A stretch of 64,000 nt of DNA, taken from positions 62,001-126,000 of the forward strand of contig CABZUW010000002.1 in assembly GCA_902529105.1 (NCBI GenBank), written 5' to 3'. The notes beneath the pieces were generated by a model. The model was not told the origin of the DNA. It was given only the letters and a program-made list of their open reading frames with translations, and did not search any database. The DNA comes from an uncultured Pelagibacteraceae bacterium (GTDB lineage Bacteria > Pseudomonadota > Alphaproteobacteria > Pelagibacterales > Pelagibacteraceae). This document shows, in pieces, positions 2,999 to 47,788 of the stretch. The stretch's first letter is position 1, and every line of letters begins with the position of its first letter. Both the position numbers and the translations under genes were made by a program.

Positions 2999-4375
2999 CT
3001 AAAGCAAAAAATAAGCTCCAATTCCTAAAAATGAAAGAAACCCAATTACATCTGTAATTGTTGTTACAAAAACACTTGATGCTATTGCTGGATCTATATT
3101 AAATTTTTTTAAAGATATAGGAATTAAAATACCAAATAAACCAGCTACTATCATGTTTAGAACCATTGAGATAGAAATTATTAACGATAGTGTATAATCT
3201 TTAAACCAAAACTGAACTACGATAGCACTAATTATTGCAAATATTACTCCATTTAGAATTCCAATTTTAAATTCTTTTAATACATTTTGTGTAAAATTAT
3301 TTTTTGTTAGTTGATTTGTTGCAATCGTTCTAATAGTGACTGCTAATGTTTGCATACCAGCGTTACCGCCCATAGATGCAACAATTGGCATAAGAACTGC
3401 TAATGCTACTACTTTTTCTATATCCTCCTTAAAAAAACCAATCACTACTGAAGCTACAATAGCGGTCAGTAAATTTAATAGTAGCCAATTAAACCTTCTT
3501 TTAGTCTTTTTAATTACACCATCTGTAATTTCTTCATCTCCTACACCTGCTAATCTTAAAGCATCTTCTTCAGCTTCCTCTTTTAAAACGGTTAAAACAT
3601 CGTCACTTGTAATCATCCCTACTAATTTATTATTTTTATCAATTACACATGCAGAGTTAAGATTATAGTTTTCAAAAATATTTGCTACTTCCTCTCTATC
3701 CATGTCAACCGGTATAGACAATTGAGACTCCTTCATTATTGACTGCATCTTAGTATCTCTAGATGTTCTTAAAACTTTTGAGGATGGTACTGAGCCAATT
3801 GGTTTAAAATCACTATCTACAATAAATATTTCAAGAAATTCCTCAGGTAGATCTTTATTCTCCCTTAAATAATCAATAGTTTGACCAACTGACCAATTAC
3901 TTGGTATAGCAGTGAACTCTCTTTGCATTATTCGTGCTGCAGAGTCCTCTGGATAACTTAAACTTTCTAATAAAGCAAATCTGTCTTTAGGTGGCAGTGA
4001 ACTTAAGATATTATTTTTATTTTTTTCATCAAGATTTTCTATAATTTTAATAGCATCATCCGACTCTAGATTCTTAAGTATAAATACAATAGAGTCTTTG
4101 GAAAGATAATTTACTATTTCTGTTTGAATAGATTCATTTAATTCAACAAAAACCTCAGGATCGATTTTAAAATTATTTAATTTTATAAGCTTTTCACGAT
4201 CACTATCATTTAAGTGTTCAATAATATCAGCTGCATCAGCAGGATGCATTTCTTTGAAGGAATTGCTTATAAAATTAGTATCATTACTAGATATTTTATC
4301 AGTTACTACCTTTATATATTCTTTGTTAAATTCAAAATTTACATTCTTGTCTTTAATTTTTCTTACTAAAGTCAT
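2999..4375 (-). CDS. mgtE: Magnesium transporter MgtE (MgtE_N, CBS pair, TM domain)
   Basis: 458 aa; MHPADAADIIEHL, CBS-like region, PIVASMGGNAGMQTLAVTIR TM motif. Confidence 0.92.
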   Translation of the reverse strand: MTLVRKIKDKNVNFEFNKEYIKVVTDKISSNDTNFISNSFKEMHPADAADIIEHLNDSDREKLIKLNNFKIDPEVFVELNESIQTEIVNYLSKDSIVFILKNLESDDAIKIIENLDEKNKNNILSSLPPKDRFALLESLSYPEDSAARIMQREFTAIPSNWSVGQTIDYLRENKDLPEEFLEIFIVDSDFKPIGSVPSSKVLRTSRDTKMQSIMKESQLSIPVDMDREEVANIFENYNLNSACVIDKNNKLVGMITSDDVLTVLKEEAEEDALRLAGVGDEEITDGVIKKTKRRFNWLLLNLLTAIVASVVIGFFKEDIEKVVALAVLMPIVASMGGNAGMQTLAVTIRTIATNQLTKNNFTQNVLKEFKIGILNGVIFAIISAIVVQFWFKDYTLSLIISISMVLNMIVAGLFGILIPISLKKFNIDPAIASSVFVTTITDVIGFLSFLGIGAYFLL

Positions 4376-4435
4376 AAAAAACTTTCATTTTATAATGGAC
4401 CTTTTAATCTATAATTTTTAGAATACAAACCTTTA

Positions 4436-5056
4436 ATGAATATAGAGATAAAAATATCAAAAAAACCAGTCAACTACGAAAAAGCCATAAAATATATGGA
4501 AAAAAGATTGAATGATATTTTATATAAAAACGCTAAAGATTTAATATGGATATTAGAACATACTGATATATACACCGCAGGAACATCGTTTAATGAAGAT
4601 GATATTTTAGATAAATCTATAAAAGTAAAGAAAACTAATAGAGGGGGAAGAATAACATTCCACGGCCCTGGACAAATAATGTTTTATTTCGTTATAAATT
4701 TAAATAAAAAAAAGAAAGATATTAGGTGGTTTATTAATGTAATAGAAAAAACTATTATTCAAACATTATCTGATTATAATATAACCTCTAAAGGAGATAA
4801 AAAAGATATAGGCATTTGGGTTAAATTAAATAATAAAGAAAGAAAAATTGCATCAATTGGAATTAAAATAAAAAAATGGATTGCTTATCATGGGTTTGCA
4901 TTAAATTATTCGGTTAACATTGAAAAATTCAAAAAAATAATTCCATGTGGGATTAAAAATAAAAAAATAATAAATATAATTGATATTAATAAAAGTAATT
5001 TTAATAGTTTAAAAAATAAACTTATTAAAAACTTTATTTATAATTTGAATAATTAA
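4436..5056 (+). CDS. lipB: Octanoyltransferase LipB
   Basis: RGGRITFHGPGQIMFY, IGIWV, IASIGIKIKKWIAYHGFALN motifs. Confidence 0.93.
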   Translation: MNIEIKISKKPVNYEKAIKYMEKRLNDILYKNAKDLIWILEHTDIYTAGTSFNEDDILDKSIKVKKTNRGGRITFHGPGQIMFYFVINLNKKKKDIRWFINVIEKTIIQTLSDYNITSKGDKKDIGIWVKLNNKERKIASIGIKIKKWIAYHGFALNYSVNIEKFKKIIPCGIKNKKIINIIDINKSNFNSLKNKLIKNFIYNLNN

Positions 5057-5939
5057 ACTTATTTGATTTTAATAACTTTTGAAAATAATCAGGTAGTTGT
5101 GCGTGATAATTATATTTTTTGCTATTGATCATGAATTTCAAGCTATAAGCGTGTAAAAATAAGTTTTTAAATTTATTTTTTTTTAAAGAGTATTTTTTAT
5201 CACCAATAATAGAGTGACTAATTAGGCTTGCTTGTTTTCTAAGTTGATGTTTTCTACCAGTTATAGGTTTAAACTCTACAAATGAATATTTGTGATTTTT
5301 ACTTATTACTCTGTAGTAAGTGATTGCTTTTTCAGATATTTTTTTATAACCATCATATCTAACTAGATTATGTTCTAGAAGGCCTTTATTATTTGTAAAC
5401 TCTCCCTCACAAACAGCAATATATGTCTTATAAATTTTTCGTAATCTAAATAATGATGTAAATAATTGAGCAGTCTTTCTATTTTTTCCAATGATTAAAA
5501 CCCCAGATGTATCTTTATCCAATCTATGAACCGCGTAAGGTTCAGAATTAGAAAAAAATATACTTTTTCTGAATATATCTATGACATTTTTATTTGATTT
5601 TGTCCCTTTTTGGGTAGGTAAGCCTGATATTTTATTTATTACAATATAATCCTCATTATCAAAAATTATTTCATTTTCTATTTCAGTTAATATTTTTTTT
5701 GACGGTATATAATTAATATTTTTACGATTTTGTTTTTCAATATTAACATTAAATAAACTAATTCTATCATCTTCTCGAACTTTATATGAACTTTTAATTT
5801 TTCTTTTATTTACTTTAATATTTCCATTTCTTAAAAATTTTTCAATTAATCCTTGTGGTAAATTATCAATGTTTTTTCGTAACCATCGATCAAGTCTCAT
5901 CAAGTCATGATCAGCAATAACATTATATGTTTTTTGCAT
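5034..5939 (-). CDS. rluC: RluA/RluC-family 23S rRNA pseudouridine synthase
   Basis: S4-like N-terminus, AVHRLDKDTSGVLIIGKN catalytic motif, GRKHQLRKQ. Confidence 0.85.
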   Translation of the reverse strand: MQKTYNVIADHDLMRLDRWLRKNIDNLPQGLIEKFLRNGNIKVNKRKIKSSYKVREDDRISLFNVNIEKQNRKNINYIPSKKILTEIENEIIFDNEDYIVINKISGLPTQKGTKSNKNVIDIFRKSIFFSNSEPYAVHRLDKDTSGVLIIGKNRKTAQLFTSLFRLRKIYKTYIAVCEGEFTNNKGLLEHNLVRYDGYKKISEKAITYYRVISKNHKYSFVEFKPITGRKHQLRKQASLISHSIIGDKKYSLKKNKFKNLFLHAYSLKFMINSKKYNYHAQLPDYFQKLLKSNKFNYSNYK

Positions 5940-21770: not shown

Positions 21771-21851
21771 AATAAAAAATTTTAGTGAAATTAACTGTCA
21801 GGGTTAATGGCAGCGTTTAGCACTTAGTGCTACATTCCAACCAAAATTATC

Positions 21852-21880
21852 GACAAATTACTTAAATATTTAAGTTTGTC
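21852..21880 (-). terminator. Hairpin in the rpoC-rpsL spacer; possible attenuator/terminator
   Basis: GACAA-att-ACTTAAAT/ATTTAAGT-TTGTC inverted repeat; no strong U-tract in the minus direction, so function is uncertain. Confidence 0.35.
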
Positions 21881-41004: not shown

Positions 41005-41886
41005 CTATTTTTCCAGCCATGCTTTGTATTTTTCAAAATTATCAATAACATATTTTGGTAGTTGATCATTGTTTAATTTAGATAAATTTACACTTGGATC
41101 ATCAGGTTTCCTGTTGTGAGCAAATATAACTTTTTTTTCATTAATCATTGACTTTATATCTTTCAAACCTATTCCACTATCTTCTATTTCATTGTGATGG
41201 CCAAAATTTAACATTTTGTCCTCAATTTCCTCTGGTGTCTTCAAATTAGAGAAGTGCCAACCACCGTCATCTATTATTTCAACATTAGAGTATTTAGTTT
41301 TAGAAAAAAAAGTATCAAATCGCCAAAAAGAATACTTTTTAGGCTTAATATACTTTAACCACTTTGGGCTTAGTAAATTTTTAATTTTGCATGCCCTAGT
41401 TCCATACCAAGGATGTAAATCATAATATAAATTAAATTTAAAATAACAAAGTTTGAGTTTTGCTATAAGCAATTTATTTTTTATGTTATTAAAATTAAAA
41501 TTTTCATATTTTGGTATCTCATCGCTGTCATTTAAGGTAAAAATATCTTCTGAACTTGCATCTTTTAAACAGTCTATAGCTGCATCATAAGATTGGTCAA
41601 TTCTTTTTAAACTGTTAAACCTTTTTTGGTTACTTTGATTTAAAAGGGTGTCCGAGGGATTGATATGTACAATTCCTTCTGGCTCATCCTCAATTACTTT
41701 ATAGATAATCTTATCTTTAAAATTTTTATAACTATTTATATCAAAATTCAGTTTTTTTTTCTTTCCACTGTGAGAATGTTTTGCTTCAATTACTATAAAT
41801 TTATCAACATATTTGTTAAGAACATTGAGCCTTAAGTCAAATAGCATAGGCTCATTATAATATGTAATACAATCGTAAATTTTCAC
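41005..41886 (-). CDS. Glycosyltransferase family 17 (MGAT3-like)
   Basis: IYDCITYYNEPMLFDLRLNVLNKYVDKFIVIEAKHSHSG, NDSDEIP, GGWHFSNLKTPEEIEDKM. Confidence 0.85.
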   Translation of the reverse strand: MKIYDCITYYNEPMLFDLRLNVLNKYVDKFIVIEAKHSHSGKKKKLNFDINSYKNFKDKIIYKVIEDEPEGIVHINPSDTLLNQSNQKRFNSLKRIDQSYDAAIDCLKDASSEDIFTLNDSDEIPKYENFNFNNIKNKLLIAKLKLCYFKFNLYYDLHPWYGTRACKIKNLLSPKWLKYIKPKKYSFWRFDTFFSKTKYSNVEIIDDGGWHFSNLKTPEEIEDKMLNFGHHNEIEDSGIGLKDIKSMINEKKVIFAHNRKPDDPSVNLSKLNNDQLPKYVIDNFEKYKAWLEK

Positions 41887-41890
41887 TTAG

Positions 41891-41976
41891 TGGTGCCCTC
41901 GGCCAGACTCGAACTGGCACTCCCAAAAGGGCAAGGATTTTAAGTCCTTTGTGTCTACCAATTTCACCACGAGGGC
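41891..41976 (-). tRNA. trnL: tRNA-Leu (TAA anticodon), CCA end encoded
   Basis: GCCCTCGTGGTGAAATTGGTAGACACAAAGGACTTAAAATCCTTGCCCTTTTGGGAGTGCCAGTTCGAGTCTGGCCGAGGGCACCA. Confidence 0.95.
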
Positions 41977-42048
41977 ATGAGTTATTTTCATGAGTGTTTA
42001 TGCTAATATTTATAATTGAACAAGATGAATAAGTAAATTTTTTTTATT
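41938..42048. repeat. 111-bp direct repeat, copy 1 (tRNA-Leu 5' half plus upstream region)
   Basis: 109/111 identity by eye to 44427..44537 at constant offset 2489. Confidence 0.95.
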
Positions 42049-42050
42049 TT

Positions 42051-42080
42051 ATCTCCCTAGGTTCTAGTCTAGTTCTAGTT
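42051..42080. repeat. 30-bp direct repeat, copy 1, downstream of the autotransporter stop
   Basis: atctccctaggttctagtctagttctagtt vs atctcaccaggttctagtctagttctagtt at 44272..44301 (28/30). Confidence 0.9.
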
Positions 42081-42116
42081 ATCCCATATTATCCTATAGA
42101 GTTTTAGTTATATTTA

Positions 42117-44234
42117 CTAAAATGTATTTACAATTTCTAGGGTTGCACCATATTCAGGTATTTGACTCATCAAGCTATAATTCGAACTCATTCTGATATC
42201 AAAACCATTTAAATCTCTCTTATAACTTAAAGATGCTTTGTTATTATCTAAAGTCATAGCATATTCAATATCGTCTGTTGGTATAAAACCAAATCCAAAA
42301 TATAAAGTATCGCTATGGGCATTATCACTTTGATTTCTCTCATAAATAGTCATTATAGAAAAACCATTATCGGTTACTAAATCAAATCCAATATTTGCTC
42401 TTAAATTTTTAGAATCTTGATCAATTGATTTTGTATATTCTGTAGTTTCCGATAGGTAACGATAAGTAGCATCTGAAGACGGACTAAAATCTACTCCAAG
42501 CTCTAATCCACCATTTGGTTTAAACGTGAAAGAATTATAATCTAAAATATCACTTATGGTAAAACCAGCAGATATCATTCCAGTTTCAATTGTTTGAGCT
42601 TTGTAAACTAAGGCTGCAGGACCTTTTTCTCTATATTTGGATAATTCTGTATAGCTTAAATCAATTCTTAAATTAGGAGTAATATTAAAATCTTCTTTTT
42701 TATATGTTGTTAAGTAGTTAAGTGAACCAAATATTTGTGCACCATCTCTTTCTCCTGTTCTAGTACTACCTCCCTCTTTCCTAACATGATCAGTCTTTAA
42801 AGTGCTCACTCCAATGATACCTTCGGTAAATTTTTCATCATCATGAGGAAAAGTTCCATAAACAGATAAACTAAAAGACTCTGTATCTAAATTAGTCCCA
42901 GATGTACCGACATCAACATCATCATTACCAAATCTAAGAGCATAACCATATAATCTATTTTTGCTTATCTTTTTATCTATGCCAAGTGTAATACCTTTGG
43001 TATTAATTTTCTTTGATGATGAAGTAGATGTATCTCCAGTTCTACCAATACTTAAGCTACCCTCACTCCAAAATGACCAATCATCTGATAATTTATCTAG
43101 AACTTCATTTGTTTTATTTGATATGGGAATAATGTTAGAAAGCGATGCCACCATTGAATTAGAAAAGTTTAATCTAATATTTTGGTTACTTAATTGATCA
43201 TTATTTCTATGTCTTCTTAACCAATACATACGGTTAAGAACTGGAGTACTTGCTTGAATAGCAATTTGTTTTGCTGTTGCAGTTTGAGATTCGATTGAGC
43301 TTAAAATATCTTTACCCCCATCGGAAGTAGTTATTGGATCATCACAAGCACCATCGATTATGCTCCAATTACAACTTAGGTTAAATTCATGAACTTTTTT
43401 ATTACTATTATCAAGGATAAACATTTTACTTCCATCATTACTAAAGACAAGTTCTCTTGACTCTGCACTAACAGAACTTACAATGAAGGTACCCTCAAGG
43501 GATAAAGTAGAAACATCATAAGGTGTAGTTAATTTAAACTGAGAAATCTTTTTTTCTCCACCATCAATGGTATACATTTTAGTACCATCGTAATTAAAAG
43601 TAACTCCATCTATGTGATCGTGAAAAGAAATTAGGTCTTCAGTATTAAGATGAGTAGTTTCTGAGCTAAGATCAAATGCTTTATCTAGTGAATATTCATG
43701 AATACGCACTTGTGTATCATCTCCTACACCAGCAACAAACATTCTGGTACCATCATTATTAAATGCAACTGAATTTGCTCTTATTTCTTGGCCAGAAATA
43801 TCATATCTACCATCAAGGTTAGCAGTTGAAATATCAAATGCAGTGGTTAGTGACCAGTAATCTATATTTTTATTACCGGCATGGCCAGCAATAAACATTT
43901 TTGTACCATCGTTATTGAACACTACTTGTGTTGGTAAAAGAGCATTTTTATTATCTGAGTGAACTCCAGTTACATGTATTATTTTAGTATTATTTACGGC
44001 TGCCGTTGAAATGTCATAAGCGGTAGTTAATATAAATTCTACAACTGCATCCAATTTATTATTTGGGTTTCTTGTAATATACATTTTTGTACCATCATTA
44101 TTAAATGTAAGTCCAAGGTCTTGGGTGCCTGTCTCGATTGATTTACTTTGCACAAAGGTTGGCTCCGCTATAGCTTTAGAAAAAAATAAAGCTAAAAAAA
44201 ATATGATGTAATGAATTTTATAAATATTTTTCAC
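42117..44234 (-). CDS. Autotransporter-like protein: beta-propeller-repeat passenger plus C-terminal beta-barrel
   Basis: Signal peptide; repeated F-NNDGT-M(F/Y)...(Y/F)D(I/V)STA units; barrel module WSFWSEGSLSIGR...; C-terminal Phe. Confidence 0.8.
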   Translation of the reverse strand: MKNIYKIHYIIFFLALFFSKAIAEPTFVQSKSIETGTQDLGLTFNNDGTKMYITRNPNNKLDAVVEFILTTAYDISTAAVNNTKIIHVTGVHSDNKNALLPTQVVFNNDGTKMFIAGHAGNKNIDYWSLTTAFDISTANLDGRYDISGQEIRANSVAFNNDGTRMFVAGVGDDTQVRIHEYSLDKAFDLSSETTHLNTEDLISFHDHIDGVTFNYDGTKMYTIDGGEKKISQFKLTTPYDVSTLSLEGTFIVSSVSAESRELVFSNDGSKMFILDNSNKKVHEFNLSCNWSIIDGACDDPITTSDGGKDILSSIESQTATAKQIAIQASTPVLNRMYWLRRHRNNDQLSNQNIRLNFSNSMVASLSNIIPISNKTNEVLDKLSDDWSFWSEGSLSIGRTGDTSTSSSKKINTKGITLGIDKKISKNRLYGYALRFGNDDVDVGTSGTNLDTESFSLSVYGTFPHDDEKFTEGIIGVSTLKTDHVRKEGGSTRTGERDGAQIFGSLNYLTTYKKEDFNITPNLRIDLSYTELSKYREKGPAALVYKAQTIETGMISAGFTISDILDYNSFTFKPNGGLELGVDFSPSSDATYRYLSETTEYTKSIDQDSKNLRANIGFDLVTDNGFSIMTIYERNQSDNAHSDTLYFGFGFIPTDDIEYAMTLDNNKASLSYKRDLNGFDIRMSSNYSLMSQIPEYGATLEIVNTF

Positions 44235-44271
44235 AACAAATAATCATTAATAAATTTATTTTCATATATTT

Positions 44272-44301
44272 ATCTCACCAGGTTCTAGTCTAGTTCTAGT
44301 T
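44272..44301. repeat. 30-bp direct repeat, copy 2, upstream of the autotransporter start
   Basis: See 42051..42080. Confidence 0.9.
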
Positions 44302-44426
44302 TGACAAAATTTATTATTCATATTTTCCAATAAAAATAAATATAGGTTTTATAAAAGTGTAGGATTATATGGGATTTGAGGCTGAATGAGACTATATGAG
44401 ATTATGAATTAACCCTACCCTATGTT

Positions 44427-44537
44427 TTTTAAGTCCTTTGTGTCTACCAATTTCACCACGAGGGCATGAGTTATTTTCATGAATGTTTATGCGAATATTT
44501 ATAATTGAACAAGATGAATAAGTAAATTTTTTTTATT
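44427..44537. repeat. 111-bp direct repeat, copy 2, containing a tRNA-Leu 5'-half fragment (44427..44465)
   Basis: Matches the tRNA from its 5' end through the anticodon-loop sequence, then diverges. Confidence 0.95.
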
Positions 44538-44561
44538 CCCCTATGTTCAAGTCTATACAAA

Positions 44562-45011
44562 TTAATTAAGACCTTTATTTATTTTGTTAATTTCATCACT
44601 ATTGTTCCACTTATTAATATTTTCTATTTTACATTTTCCATTATAACCTGCAATTTTCTTTAATTTTTGTTCACGAATTGATGCAGGCCCTTTTAATAAA
44701 CATTTAATAAGTGTTGTACGATTTGCAGAAACATCTATTTGACCATTTGATATCTTGCCAGGTTTGTTATTATTTTGTATCTCGTCTTGAAAAAGACCAC
44801 AAACGACAAACCATCTTAAAATACCATCATCAGTTTTAATATTACTTGCACTGACTTCATCTAAGTCTACAGACCTGATGCAAACATTTACTTCATGATG
44901 TTCGTATTTTTTAAATATATCAAAAAAACCACCGAAATATAATACTAATGATATACATATAACTGGTATTAAAAATTGAGGATTAATAAAAAATAATAAA
45001 ATTTTTTTCAC
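44562..45011 (-). CDS. Hypothetical protein with N-terminal TM segment
   Basis: 149 aa ORF abutting the next gene (45012); hydrophobic FLIPVICISLVLYFGGFF. Confidence 0.6.
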   Translation of the reverse strand: MKKILLFFINPQFLIPVICISLVLYFGGFFDIFKKYEHHEVNVCIRSVDLDEVSASNIKTDDGILRWFVVCGLFQDEIQNNNKPGKISNGQIDVSANRTTLIKCLLKGPASIREQKLKKIAGYNGKCKIENINKWNNSDEINKINKGLN

Positions 45012-45655: not shown

Positions 45656-47788
45656 TTAAAACTTACTTACCACTTGTAATGTAGCTCCGTATTCTGGTAT
45701 TTGACTAAGCAATTTATAATTTGATCCTAATTTGATATTAAAACCACTTATATTTTTATTATAATTTAGTGAAGCATTATCATTTTTTAAAGCCATTACA
45801 AATTTAATATTTTCTGTTGGCACATAACCAGCTGAAAAAAAGATCTCATTTATGTATCCACTGCTCATAGCATGAAATCTTTCAAAATTAGCAATTAATG
45901 ACCATCCACTTTCATAAGTTACATCAAAACCATAACCTATTCTAAAATTTTGATGTGCTTCTTCATCAATATTAATTGAGAACATTGTGTTCGGGTCATT
46001 TACATAATAAAAATCTGCATCTGATGTAGGACTAAAATCAATTATATATTCAAATCTTCCGGAATGATTAATTATTCTATCTTCATAATGTCTAATTGTA
46101 TTGTCTAAAAGTAAACCAACAGTTCCAAAACCATTAATTATCTCATGTTTTTTAAATAATAAAGTATCTGATGTTGTTCCAAATTCGTTTTCTTCCTCAT
46201 ACTCATCCAACCTTGTATATCCTAAATCAAATTTGATGTTTGGGCTTAAATTGTAGTTTTCTTTATTAATTCTTTTGCCTAAGTTAATAGTTCCATAAAT
46301 TTGATTTCCATTTCTGCTACCTTTGAGAATAGTGCTGTTTTCTTCCCGCTTAGTATTAAGATCAATATGGCTTATTCCGATTATTGCATTCGTAAATAAA
46401 TGGGATTCTATTAATCTTGTTCCATACATAGATATACTGTATGTTTTTGCAAAAACACCGGATAAAGACGGAATTATATCTATATTCTCTGTTCCAAATT
46501 GGAATGCGTAACCGTGCATAAAATCTTTATTTTTTTTTCTATCTGCACCAATAACAAAACCAGATGTATGAATATTTCTAGAAAAAGAACCTGATTTAGC
46601 ATTAGTTTTACCGATTCCGATTCTTCCTTCATTCCATTTAAACCACTCATCATCATTTTGTCTTTTTTCTCGTTTTATATTAGGTTTAATTGTTTCAACT
46701 AATTTAGCTAATCTTTGATCTGAAAAACTAATTTGAGCTTGTAAATTATTTAACTCATCATAATTTTTATGACGTCTTAACCATTTTATACGTCGCATTA
46801 TTGGTAAAGTATTATGTAGAATAACTCGTTTTGAAAGTTCTACTTGTGAATCTATTAAAGCAACTACATTTTGATCTTGACTTGCATCTTCGCAACTTAT
46901 TGTAGTTGCACAAGAATGAGTGTACTCAAATATTTTATTATTACCTACACCACCATTGTCATTTGTTACATATAGTCTAGAGAAGGAGGATGTAAAAATA
47001 AAACCTCGCATATTAGTTATTCTATTACCTAAATCAAATGTGGTAGCAGATGACGACAATGTACTAACATCCCAAGCTGTACTTAAAGTAAACTTGTGCA
47101 TATCGTTACTACCATTACCAGCATAGTATAATTCTGTACCCTCATTACTAAATTGAATGTTTCTTGGATTATTATCAGTCGAGGTCAATGCTGCAGAATC
47201 TCTAACATGTGTAACATTTGATGTTGTTACATCCCATGGTGTTGACAAAGAATACTCTTTTATTTTTTCAAATTGATTTCCAGTTACGTACATTCTTGAC
47301 CCGTCTGGTTTAAAATCTAAACTTCTTAATTGATCCTCACCAGAAACATCATATTTTGCACTAAAGCTAATTGTTGAAACATCCCAAGCTGTTGAAAGGT
47401 CATACTGGTAAACTAGTGTACCTGTATTTTTTATAACGAACATTCGTGTGCCATCAGGTTTAAATTCAATCGCATGAGGTAAAAATGCAAATTCATCATC
47501 GTCTTCACCTGGCTCTGTTAATTGTGTGGTTGATATTAAGTTTGCAGTGTTAATGTCAAATGCAGTACTTAAACTATACTGGTCAATAAAACCTCTTCTA
47601 CCGGCATCATTATTACCCCCACCAGTGATTCTTCTTGTTATATACATTATTGTTCCATCTGGTTTAAAATTAATTCCCCTTACTCCATCTATATCGGATA
47701 AAGTAATTTTTTGTTTAAAATTTGGTATCGCGAAAACTTCTGTTATAAGTATGAAGCTAAAAAATATAAATAGAAATATTTTTTTCAT
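45656..47788 (-). CDS. Autotransporter-like protein, paralogue of 42117..44234
   Basis: Signal peptide, repeated FKPDGT(R)M(Y/F)V...LSTAWDVST units, conserved barrel ending PEYGATLQVVSKF. Confidence 0.8.
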   Translation of the reverse strand: MKKIFLFIFFSFILITEVFAIPNFKQKITLSDIDGVRGINFKPDGTIMYITRRITGGGNNDAGRRGFIDQYSLSTAFDINTANLISTTQLTEPGEDDDEFAFLPHAIEFKPDGTRMFVIKNTGTLVYQYDLSTAWDVSTISFSAKYDVSGEDQLRSLDFKPDGSRMYVTGNQFEKIKEYSLSTPWDVTTSNVTHVRDSAALTSTDNNPRNIQFSNEGTELYYAGNGSNDMHKFTLSTAWDVSTLSSSATTFDLGNRITNMRGFIFTSSFSRLYVTNDNGGVGNNKIFEYTHSCATTISCEDASQDQNVVALIDSQVELSKRVILHNTLPIMRRIKWLRRHKNYDELNNLQAQISFSDQRLAKLVETIKPNIKREKRQNDDEWFKWNEGRIGIGKTNAKSGSFSRNIHTSGFVIGADRKKNKDFMHGYAFQFGTENIDIIPSLSGVFAKTYSISMYGTRLIESHLFTNAIIGISHIDLNTKREENSTILKGSRNGNQIYGTINLGKRINKENYNLSPNIKFDLGYTRLDEYEEENEFGTTSDTLLFKKHEIINGFGTVGLLLDNTIRHYEDRIINHSGRFEYIIDFSPTSDADFYYVNDPNTMFSINIDEEAHQNFRIGYGFDVTYESGWSLIANFERFHAMSSGYINEIFFSAGYVPTENIKFVMALKNDNASLNYNKNISGFNIKLGSNYKLLSQIPEYGATLQVVSKF

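Follow-up and report, generated by a model that had tools for sequence, protein, structure and literature searches.

This locus raises the question of how the first half of a tRNA gene came to be present twice, with an autotransporter gene enclosed between the two copies. Within the window (the whole 64,000-nucleotide stretch of an uncultured Pelagibacteraceae bacterium that we analyzed), positions 41938..42048 and 44427..44537 are identical at 109 of 111 positions in a gapless pairwise alignment, so the duplication reported in the preliminary description of this DNA is real. ARAGORN and Rfam agree that an intact tRNA-Leu gene with anticodon UAA occupies 41891..41976 of the minus strand, and the repeat therefore consists of the 72 bp upstream of this gene (41977..42048) and its first 39 nucleotides (41938..41976). 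The repeat stops at the 3' border of the 7-nucleotide anticodon loop CTTAAAA, and relatives break there too, which agrees with the breakpoint originally proposed. Duplication of the 5' half rather than the 3' half had been called unusual; we confirm it, and a review describes the 5'-half mode as rarely met in bacteria (PMC8371274). In the direction of tRNA transcription, the displaced 5' half (44537..44427) comes first and the rebuilt tRNA last, and the insert with the autotransporter gene lies between them. Chance origin of the repeat is ruled out because dozens of other genomes have the identical junction.

A search of 60 relatives found many same-genus genomes with 1 to 3 extra copies of the upstream region and 5' half before the intact tRNA, and none in G012 or in the genomes of a second family. 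In nearly all relatives with copies the breakpoint is identical, directly after ..GGACTTAAAA, and the genes between stacked copies are unrelated to one another, so the alternative cargo that the preliminary description proposed to look for does exist. The two 111-bp copies are the ends of one element of ~2.5 kb, with further conserved end sequence inside and outside the 111 bp. If the tRNA 5' half and the neighboring autotransporter paralogue (45656..47788) had been duplicated in tandem and a deletion had followed, the second autotransporter just upstream would be accounted for, but the best segment of the two paralogues has 72% DNA identity over 196 nucleotides, compared with 98% for the repeat, and elsewhere unrelated cargo occupies the same place. 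With paralogues far more diverged than the repeat, we reject this candidate as highly improbable. Many of the supporting genomes are single-cell or metagenome-assembled drafts, which speaks for an assembly artefact; even so, because the structure recurs in dozens of independent, mostly single-cell assemblies, and the displaced half is also present in a one-contig genome (G322), an artefact is very unlikely.

Across these genomes we delimited 87 distinct complete cassettes, ranging from 275 bp to 5.7 kb with a median of ~2 kb. In the junction alignment, the left end consists of 23 nucleotides, three 10-bp iterons (AGTCY) and then, usually, an ATCCYAT-like motif, and the right end consists of TAGGATTTTATAGGAT, a doubled 8- to 9-mer and then GAGATAAA. 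A clear left arm is present in 81 of the 87. The right-arm 8-mers are paired at a spacing of 11 in 78 of 81 cassettes and the pair is perfect in 70 of 81, against 1% of random internal control windows. In 59 of 70 cases an element also has its right-arm 8-mer close to its left end, as against 54 of 1,567 trials with 8-mers from other elements; measured from the crossover, these left copies usually lie at +125 to +128 and +136 to +139. There are ~40 different 8-mers among the cassettes. They are element specific, with two direct pairs per element, each at a constant distance from the crossover at its end. Left-arm type and 8-mer sequence are not significantly associated (417 of 2,000 permutations were as low). 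Like the 8-mers, arm-type sites of a tyrosine integrase would be expected to be constant in position, variable in sequence and identical within one element, and the 8-mers may well be such sites. The paired DR2 repeats of Tn916 are comparable.

The window holds one complete integrated cassette of this kind, 2,489 bp on the minus strand (41938..44426, with its left end at 44426 and its right end at 41938), as defined by the 111-bp repeat and by alignment of element ends in relatives. All of the following features are likewise on the minus strand. According to the repeat borders, the rebuilt tRNA-Leu(UAA) at 41891..41976 combines a chromosomal 3' half (41891..41937) with a 5' half supplied by the cassette (41938..41976). 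The right junction at 41938..41944 is the anticodon loop itself, the putative 7-bp crossover (overlap), where the identity block ends both in the window and in relatives; the displaced copy of this core forms the left junction at 44427..44433, as seen in the sequence and in the junction alignment of relatives. Inside the right junction are the 72 bp upstream of the tRNA (41977..42048), a part of the repeat that is conserved in cassettes and is presumed to act as a replacement promoter, and then the right arm (42049..42104), composed of the TAGGATAATATGGGATA motif, an iteron pair and GGGAGATAA, which matches a right-arm profile of 81 cassettes (nhmmer, 1.8e-15). The pair itself (42061..42079) is two copies of ACTAGAAC at a spacing of 11, located at -142 and -131 from the right crossover, and the same sequence is found twice at 44282..44300, again at a spacing of 11, at +126 and +137 from the left crossover. 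The left arm (44353..44424; nhmmer, 1.8e-10 against the left-arm profile) includes three 10-bp iterons, AATCT/AGTCT/AGCCT (44379..44403), followed by CCCATATAATCC, and the junction alignment places the 23-nucleotide spacer at 44404..44426. Beyond the left end, the repeat continues as nucleotides 1 to 39 of the displaced tRNA half (44427..44465) and the displaced 72-bp upstream region (44466..44537). A promoter and terminator scan of 41800..44700 gave sites no more numerous than in shuffled sequence.

The cargo is a single open reading frame (42117..44234) for a 705-amino-acid autotransporter with a β-barrel domain (PF03797, 4e-31) and a propeller-like N-terminal part; the preliminary description, too, had an autotransporter gene between the repeats. 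That description left open whether the locus reflects unusual integration or a decayed element. Our results favor the former: a site-specific integration of an unusual type stands, while decay does not, since the family is regularly without an integrase and its arms are complete and conserved. Were the locus the remnant of a prophage or genomic island, with the integrase lost through decay and the autotransporter left over, the 5'-half repeat and the missing integrase of this one element would be explained; dozens of cassettes with different cargo, all integrase-less and yet with complete arms, do not fit this view, and we recognized no phage-gene remnants or integrase fragments between the att sites of the window cassette. 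We regard this explanation as very unlikely and conclude that the window element is an intact family member. Elsewhere in the family the cargo is diverse, including trypsin-like proteases (7), autotransporters (5), MORN-repeat proteins (5) and caspase-like peptidases (4), as well as type I and type IIG restriction-modification systems, polysaccharide lyases and SHOCT proteins. The first cargo open reading frame usually begins at +165 to +200, and 140 of 147 are in the direction of the tRNA. A satellite-integrase profile has no match among these 147.

The left-junction pattern occurs in at least 120 genome stretches, all of them Pelagibacterales records and mostly single-cell genomes; the spacer was allowed to vary from 20 to 26 nucleotides and is 23 in every match listed. 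A strict form is present in 49 of 300 same-genus genomes (reversed control, 0), a count that leaves out the window cassette, with AATCT as its first iteron. The displaced 5' half is found in 67 of the 300 genomes (species), a count that misses the left-end type starting with T. When AGTC iterons were searched for in 121 genomes with no anchor at the tRNA, all 16 matches lay 23 nucleotides after a tRNA-Leu(UAA) 5' half. An empty site with one tRNA-Leu copy, also sought on the suggestion of the preliminary description, is found in G033, where a gene ends 76 bp before the tRNA; in G017 the same gene (80% identity between the two genomes over ~1 kb up to the stop codon) is 5.7 kb from the tRNA. 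Stacks reach four copies. The autotransporter cassette of the window is also present in G017, L118, L129, L177 and L180, at varying depths in the stack and with 88 to 95% identity over the longer aligned pieces. In L177 a cargo-less cassette of 275 bp lies between the autotransporter cassette and the tRNA, which fits newer insertions entering beside the tRNA.

Alternatively, homologous recombination, acting on the 111-bp repeats and on flanking genes, could reshuffle such stacks, and the cassettes would then be relics of old integrations with no site-specific enzyme needed now. Repeats of ~110 bp with 83 to 100% identity could recombine, and recombination is held to be frequent in SAR11 (PMC7542561). 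However, homologous recombination fails to explain the exact anticodon-loop breakpoints or the arms and 8-mers at fixed positions relative to both crossovers, and the near-intact arms of most cassettes suggest selection for mobility. Homologous recombination may contribute to reshuffling, but as the whole explanation we consider it unlikely.

No integrase gene lies in or near the window cassette. The preliminary description had noted no integrase nearby, and the host draft genome indeed has one PF00589 match, a 311-amino-acid open frame ~100 kb away on the same contig, which is presumably Xer; most relatives have one PF00589 frame of ~325 amino acids. A chromosomal or nearby integrase as the mover was rejected, as only this presumed Xer recombinase was found. 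Viral contigs have the same tRNA 5' half mainly in T7-like phages and in satellites, each with an integrase beside an attP with this anticodon-loop core, which answers the earlier call for such integrases.

The satellites L051, L068, L074 and L076 encode an integrase of 545 to 549 amino acids, ~100 bp past the left arm, and a primase-like protein of 779 to 835 amino acids. L051 is a free circular satellite of 7.7 kb with a cassette-type attP at both contig ends, and in G144 (8.8 kb) and G192 (7.8 kb) an integrated satellite is bordered by a displaced half on one side and an intact tRNA-Leu on the other. Arms of the cassette kind are common to G144, G192, L051, L068 and L076, two of which have an 8-mer exactly as in cassettes. 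Cassettes such as the one in G009 have exactly the left arm of G144, GCCGAGGGATTCACAGACGAGTCAGTCCGTGGTAGTC; the G144 8-mer ACCAGCAC occurs in several cassettes, and the G192 8-mer ACTAGAAA likewise occurs in cassettes. An 8-mer identical to that of a cassette is found in only some satellites, and the left 8-mer copies of satellites are at +140/+165, within the integrase gene, compared with +126/+137 in cassettes. Profile searches assign the satellite proteins to phage integrase (phrog_1, 2e-21; PF00589, 3e-10) and primase families, and we found no named relatives of the integrase in phage records. An AlphaFold model of the integrase is poor overall (pLDDT 54) and is taken here solely as backing for the fold class. 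It matches lambda integrase, and the N-terminal part of the model matches P4-like arm-binding domains (TM-score of 0.66 to 0.79 on the target, ~2 Å). With an integrase and a primase-helicase, these satellites are like P4-like satellites. A PHROGs scan of 10 proteins of G144, part of its open reading frames, found no capsid or terminase genes. The occurrence of satellites in viral contig sets is only suggestive of packaging by a helper phage. Satellite integrases are scarce (6 of 300 genomes, and 4 of 297 in a second search), and helper and cassette are therefore found together in only a few genomes, e.g., in G226, where the stack contains two cassettes and an integrase-bearing element with a left arm of another type.

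The T7-like phages offer another source of recombinase, since their integrases could move cassettes through the same tRNA-Leu anticodon loop. These phage contigs have an integrase of 286 to 296 amino acids directly upstream of the tRNA 5' half (in L057, at 4631-5491; PF00589, 9e-24) and downstream an ~830-amino-acid gene product that is presumably an RNA polymerase, and in L066 the integrase gene is followed by a complete tRNA-Leu, as at the end of an integrated phage. A T7-like pelagiphage with 46 bp of tRNA-Leu in its attP is on record (PMC3861242), and related HTVC019P-type phages use tRNA-Leu(TAG) (PMC6811365). Nevertheless, the flanks of the phage core have neither AGTC iterons at 23 nucleotides nor paired 8-mers, while satellites have both, and among viral contigs the left-arm pattern is found in satellites only. 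T7-like pelagiphages share with the cassettes a SAR11 tRNA-Leu and, in the contigs found here, the anticodon-loop core and the 5'-half orientation, but they are whole phages with a different integrase of their own and other arm sequences, and there is only a small chance that they are the movers.

Based on the cassette ends, the stacks and the arms held in common with satellites, we consider it probable that the region is an integrated, non-autonomous cassette without an integrase whose recombinase is most likely supplied in trans by P4-like satellites. A circular form of the cassette would carry an attP in which the anticodon-loop core joins the 72 bp and tRNA 5' half to the left arm. This attP would recombine with the anticodon loop of tRNA-Leu(UAA), catalyzed by the satellite tyrosine integrase (~550 amino acids) acting in trans, with its predicted arm-binding domain presumably reading the element-specific 8-mers, one pair near each end. 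The old 5' half would be displaced to one side and the tRNA rebuilt with the 5' half and upstream sequence of the cassette, whose 72 bp would then provide the tRNA promoter; in recombinant bacterial tRNA genes generally, the original promoter drives expression, with very few exceptions (PMC8371274). The rebuilt gene would again be an attB, and therefore later cassettes would enter between the previous cassette and the tRNA 3' half and stacks would form with the newest member beside the tRNA. For the integrase-less cassettes we have seen neither a circular form nor excision. It is possible, although in our estimate slightly short of an even chance, that the 8-mer is an address code that decides which satellite integrase moves a cassette, so that numerous satellite lineages existing side by side run parallel, mutually selective networks of gene shuttling that feed a last-in stack at one SAR11 tRNA gene.

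Several elements of this arrangement have precedents. Tycheposons of Prochlorococcus and other marine bacteria occur in cargo and satellite versions that share tRNA sites. The SAR11 system likewise combines cargo and satellite versions at common tRNA sites in streamlined marine bacteria. Tycheposons are described as 4 to 200 kb in size with a tyrosine recombinase (PMC10872708), and by that description they are set apart from SAR11 cassettes, which are 0.28 to 5.7 kb with no recombinase, only the satellites having one. Flexible genomic islands of the additive kind, marked by direct repeats of tRNA sequence, are known from 'Ca. Actinomarinales' (PMC7771536), and fGI-2 of Methylophilaceae has additive cassettes in which the final 20 bp of tRNA-Lys are repeated (PMC10872708). 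As in SAR11, small cassettes are added singly at tRNA genes in streamlined aquatic bacteria with a piece of tRNA repeated; the SAR11 repeat is instead a 5' half with 72 bp upstream, not the 3' 20 bp of tRNA-Lys, and the passages on these islands mention neither arm sites nor element-specific iterons nor a helper. CIMEs (cis-mobilizable elements) are integrase-less relatives of ICEs, flanked by att sites, that are moved in trans by a related element and accrete in tandem. SAR11 cassettes also are att flanked, lack a recombination module and accrete in tandem, and they may also be moved in trans, but a P4-like satellite takes the place of the ICE as putative helper, and the cassettes are much smaller, mostly of 1 to 2 genes, far outnumber their helpers and have element-specific paired iterons. 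To judge from their sequences, with both att ends, no recombinase and att sites matching an autonomous element, they would be CIME-like (the term is found in PMC7563491), but in principle only, as we saw no ICE at the site. The putative helper has in common with P4-like satellites an integrase with a predicted arm-binding domain, a primase-helicase, a small circle and a tRNA site, and differs from them in its 5'-half mode of integration; general protein-family searches recognized no capsid-hijacking genes in it. Integron arrays are mostly single-gene cassettes in one orientation, the newest beside a fixed site, with the recombinase outside the cassette. These properties are shared by SAR11 cassettes, except that we found no integron integrase in the hosts, where most genomes have only the one PF00589 protein of ~311 to 325 amino acids (presumably Xer), and an attP-like site with arms at a tRNA would take the place of a folded attC. 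For pTN3-type archaeal integrases, attB is a tRNA 5' half and the element's own promoter drives the reconstituted tRNA gene (PMC8371274), but these elements are archaeal and autonomous, and the integrase gene is split upon integration. A literature search, with most subscription papers outside its scope, found no account of the SAR11 cassette family or its arms. Additive cassettes anchored at tRNA genes, integrase-less elements mobilized in trans and a tRNA-Leu pelagiphage are already known.

SAR11 bacteria combine streamlined genomes with a large flexible gene pool, and the route by which genes enter is poorly explained. The tRNA-Leu locus offers a concrete, testable route of entry, with tiny integrase-less cassettes and a candidate helper, and the cassettes carry surface proteins, proteases and restriction-modification genes. 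The likeness of docking sites between cassettes and satellites points to a way in which these abundant, streamlined bacteria may swap genes, and the same route may explain additive tRNA cassettes in other streamlined marine bacteria. With their diagnostic ends, the cassettes can be sought in any genome or metagenome of SAR11, and if the 8-mers are integrase arm sites, integrase specificity could be read directly from sequence. The arm-profile search found no remnants of older cassettes further upstream in the window. By eye, the 23 bp immediately adjoining the displaced upstream region (44538..44560, minus strand; ATAGACTTGAACATAGGGG), which the profile misses, resemble other right arms; tentatively, an older cassette upstream may have left its right arm here in degenerate form.

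In the P4-like satellites that occupy the same tRNA-Leu site as the cassettes, the left 8-mer copies fall within the start of the integrase gene itself (L206:9113-9200 and the left end of L207), so the putative arm sites and the integrase N terminus must co-evolve. A 104-aa ORF in one relative's genome (L301, G086:C12:21817-22056) matches the satellite integrase in its N-terminal arm-binding part only and may be a remnant or a stand-alone DNA-binding protein. A second type of satellite is represented by L071 and L073, in which a 538-aa integrase-like ORF adjoins the same tRNA core and the arms differ, with the core flanked on either side by paired repeats (AGTTGCCCA or AGTTACCCA). A Pfam search with the 538-aa protein of L071 gave zero matches.

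Two relatives' genomes suggest that tRNA-Ser may be used by sibling elements. Upstream of a tRNA-Ser gene in one of them (L213:700-900, G008:C2) is TAGGATTTTATAGGATAACTAGGACCAAACTAGGA, which resembles the cassette right arm, and the other (L201, G182:C37) carries a distant relative of the satellite integrase that ends just short of tRNA-Ser(GCT).

A different contig of the genome to which the window belongs also has a displaced tRNA-Leu 5' half, and a TAGTTTGAG-type left arm comes directly after it (L031:7865-7905, equivalent to G000:C7:12864-12904). No intact tRNA-Leu was found beside this half, and the half with its arm would be a remnant or a relocated end. Within the window, a second autotransporter gene (45656..47788) belongs to the same family as the cassette's cargo, and the two ORFs between it and the displaced half (210 and 149 aa) have no Pfam match. 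This gene and the ORFs may represent an earlier cassette with degraded ends. Elsewhere in the window, positions 21775..21856 (minus strand) match the rpsL sRNA (Rfam RF01823, 60 bits).

Cassette-like DNA is also present in a 5,129-bp IMG/VR contig (L059) from a T4-like phage (PhoH). At 3765-5129, a phage gene continues in frame into sequence resembling the cargo of the SAR11 cassette L107. Next comes a right arm of the cassette kind, and then the 72-bp region with the 5' half of tRNA-Leu behind it. This contig may be a phage genome containing cassette DNA, or else it may be chimeric. In two other viral contigs (L053 and L065) the tRNA-Leu(UAA) gene appears to be whole, not halved.
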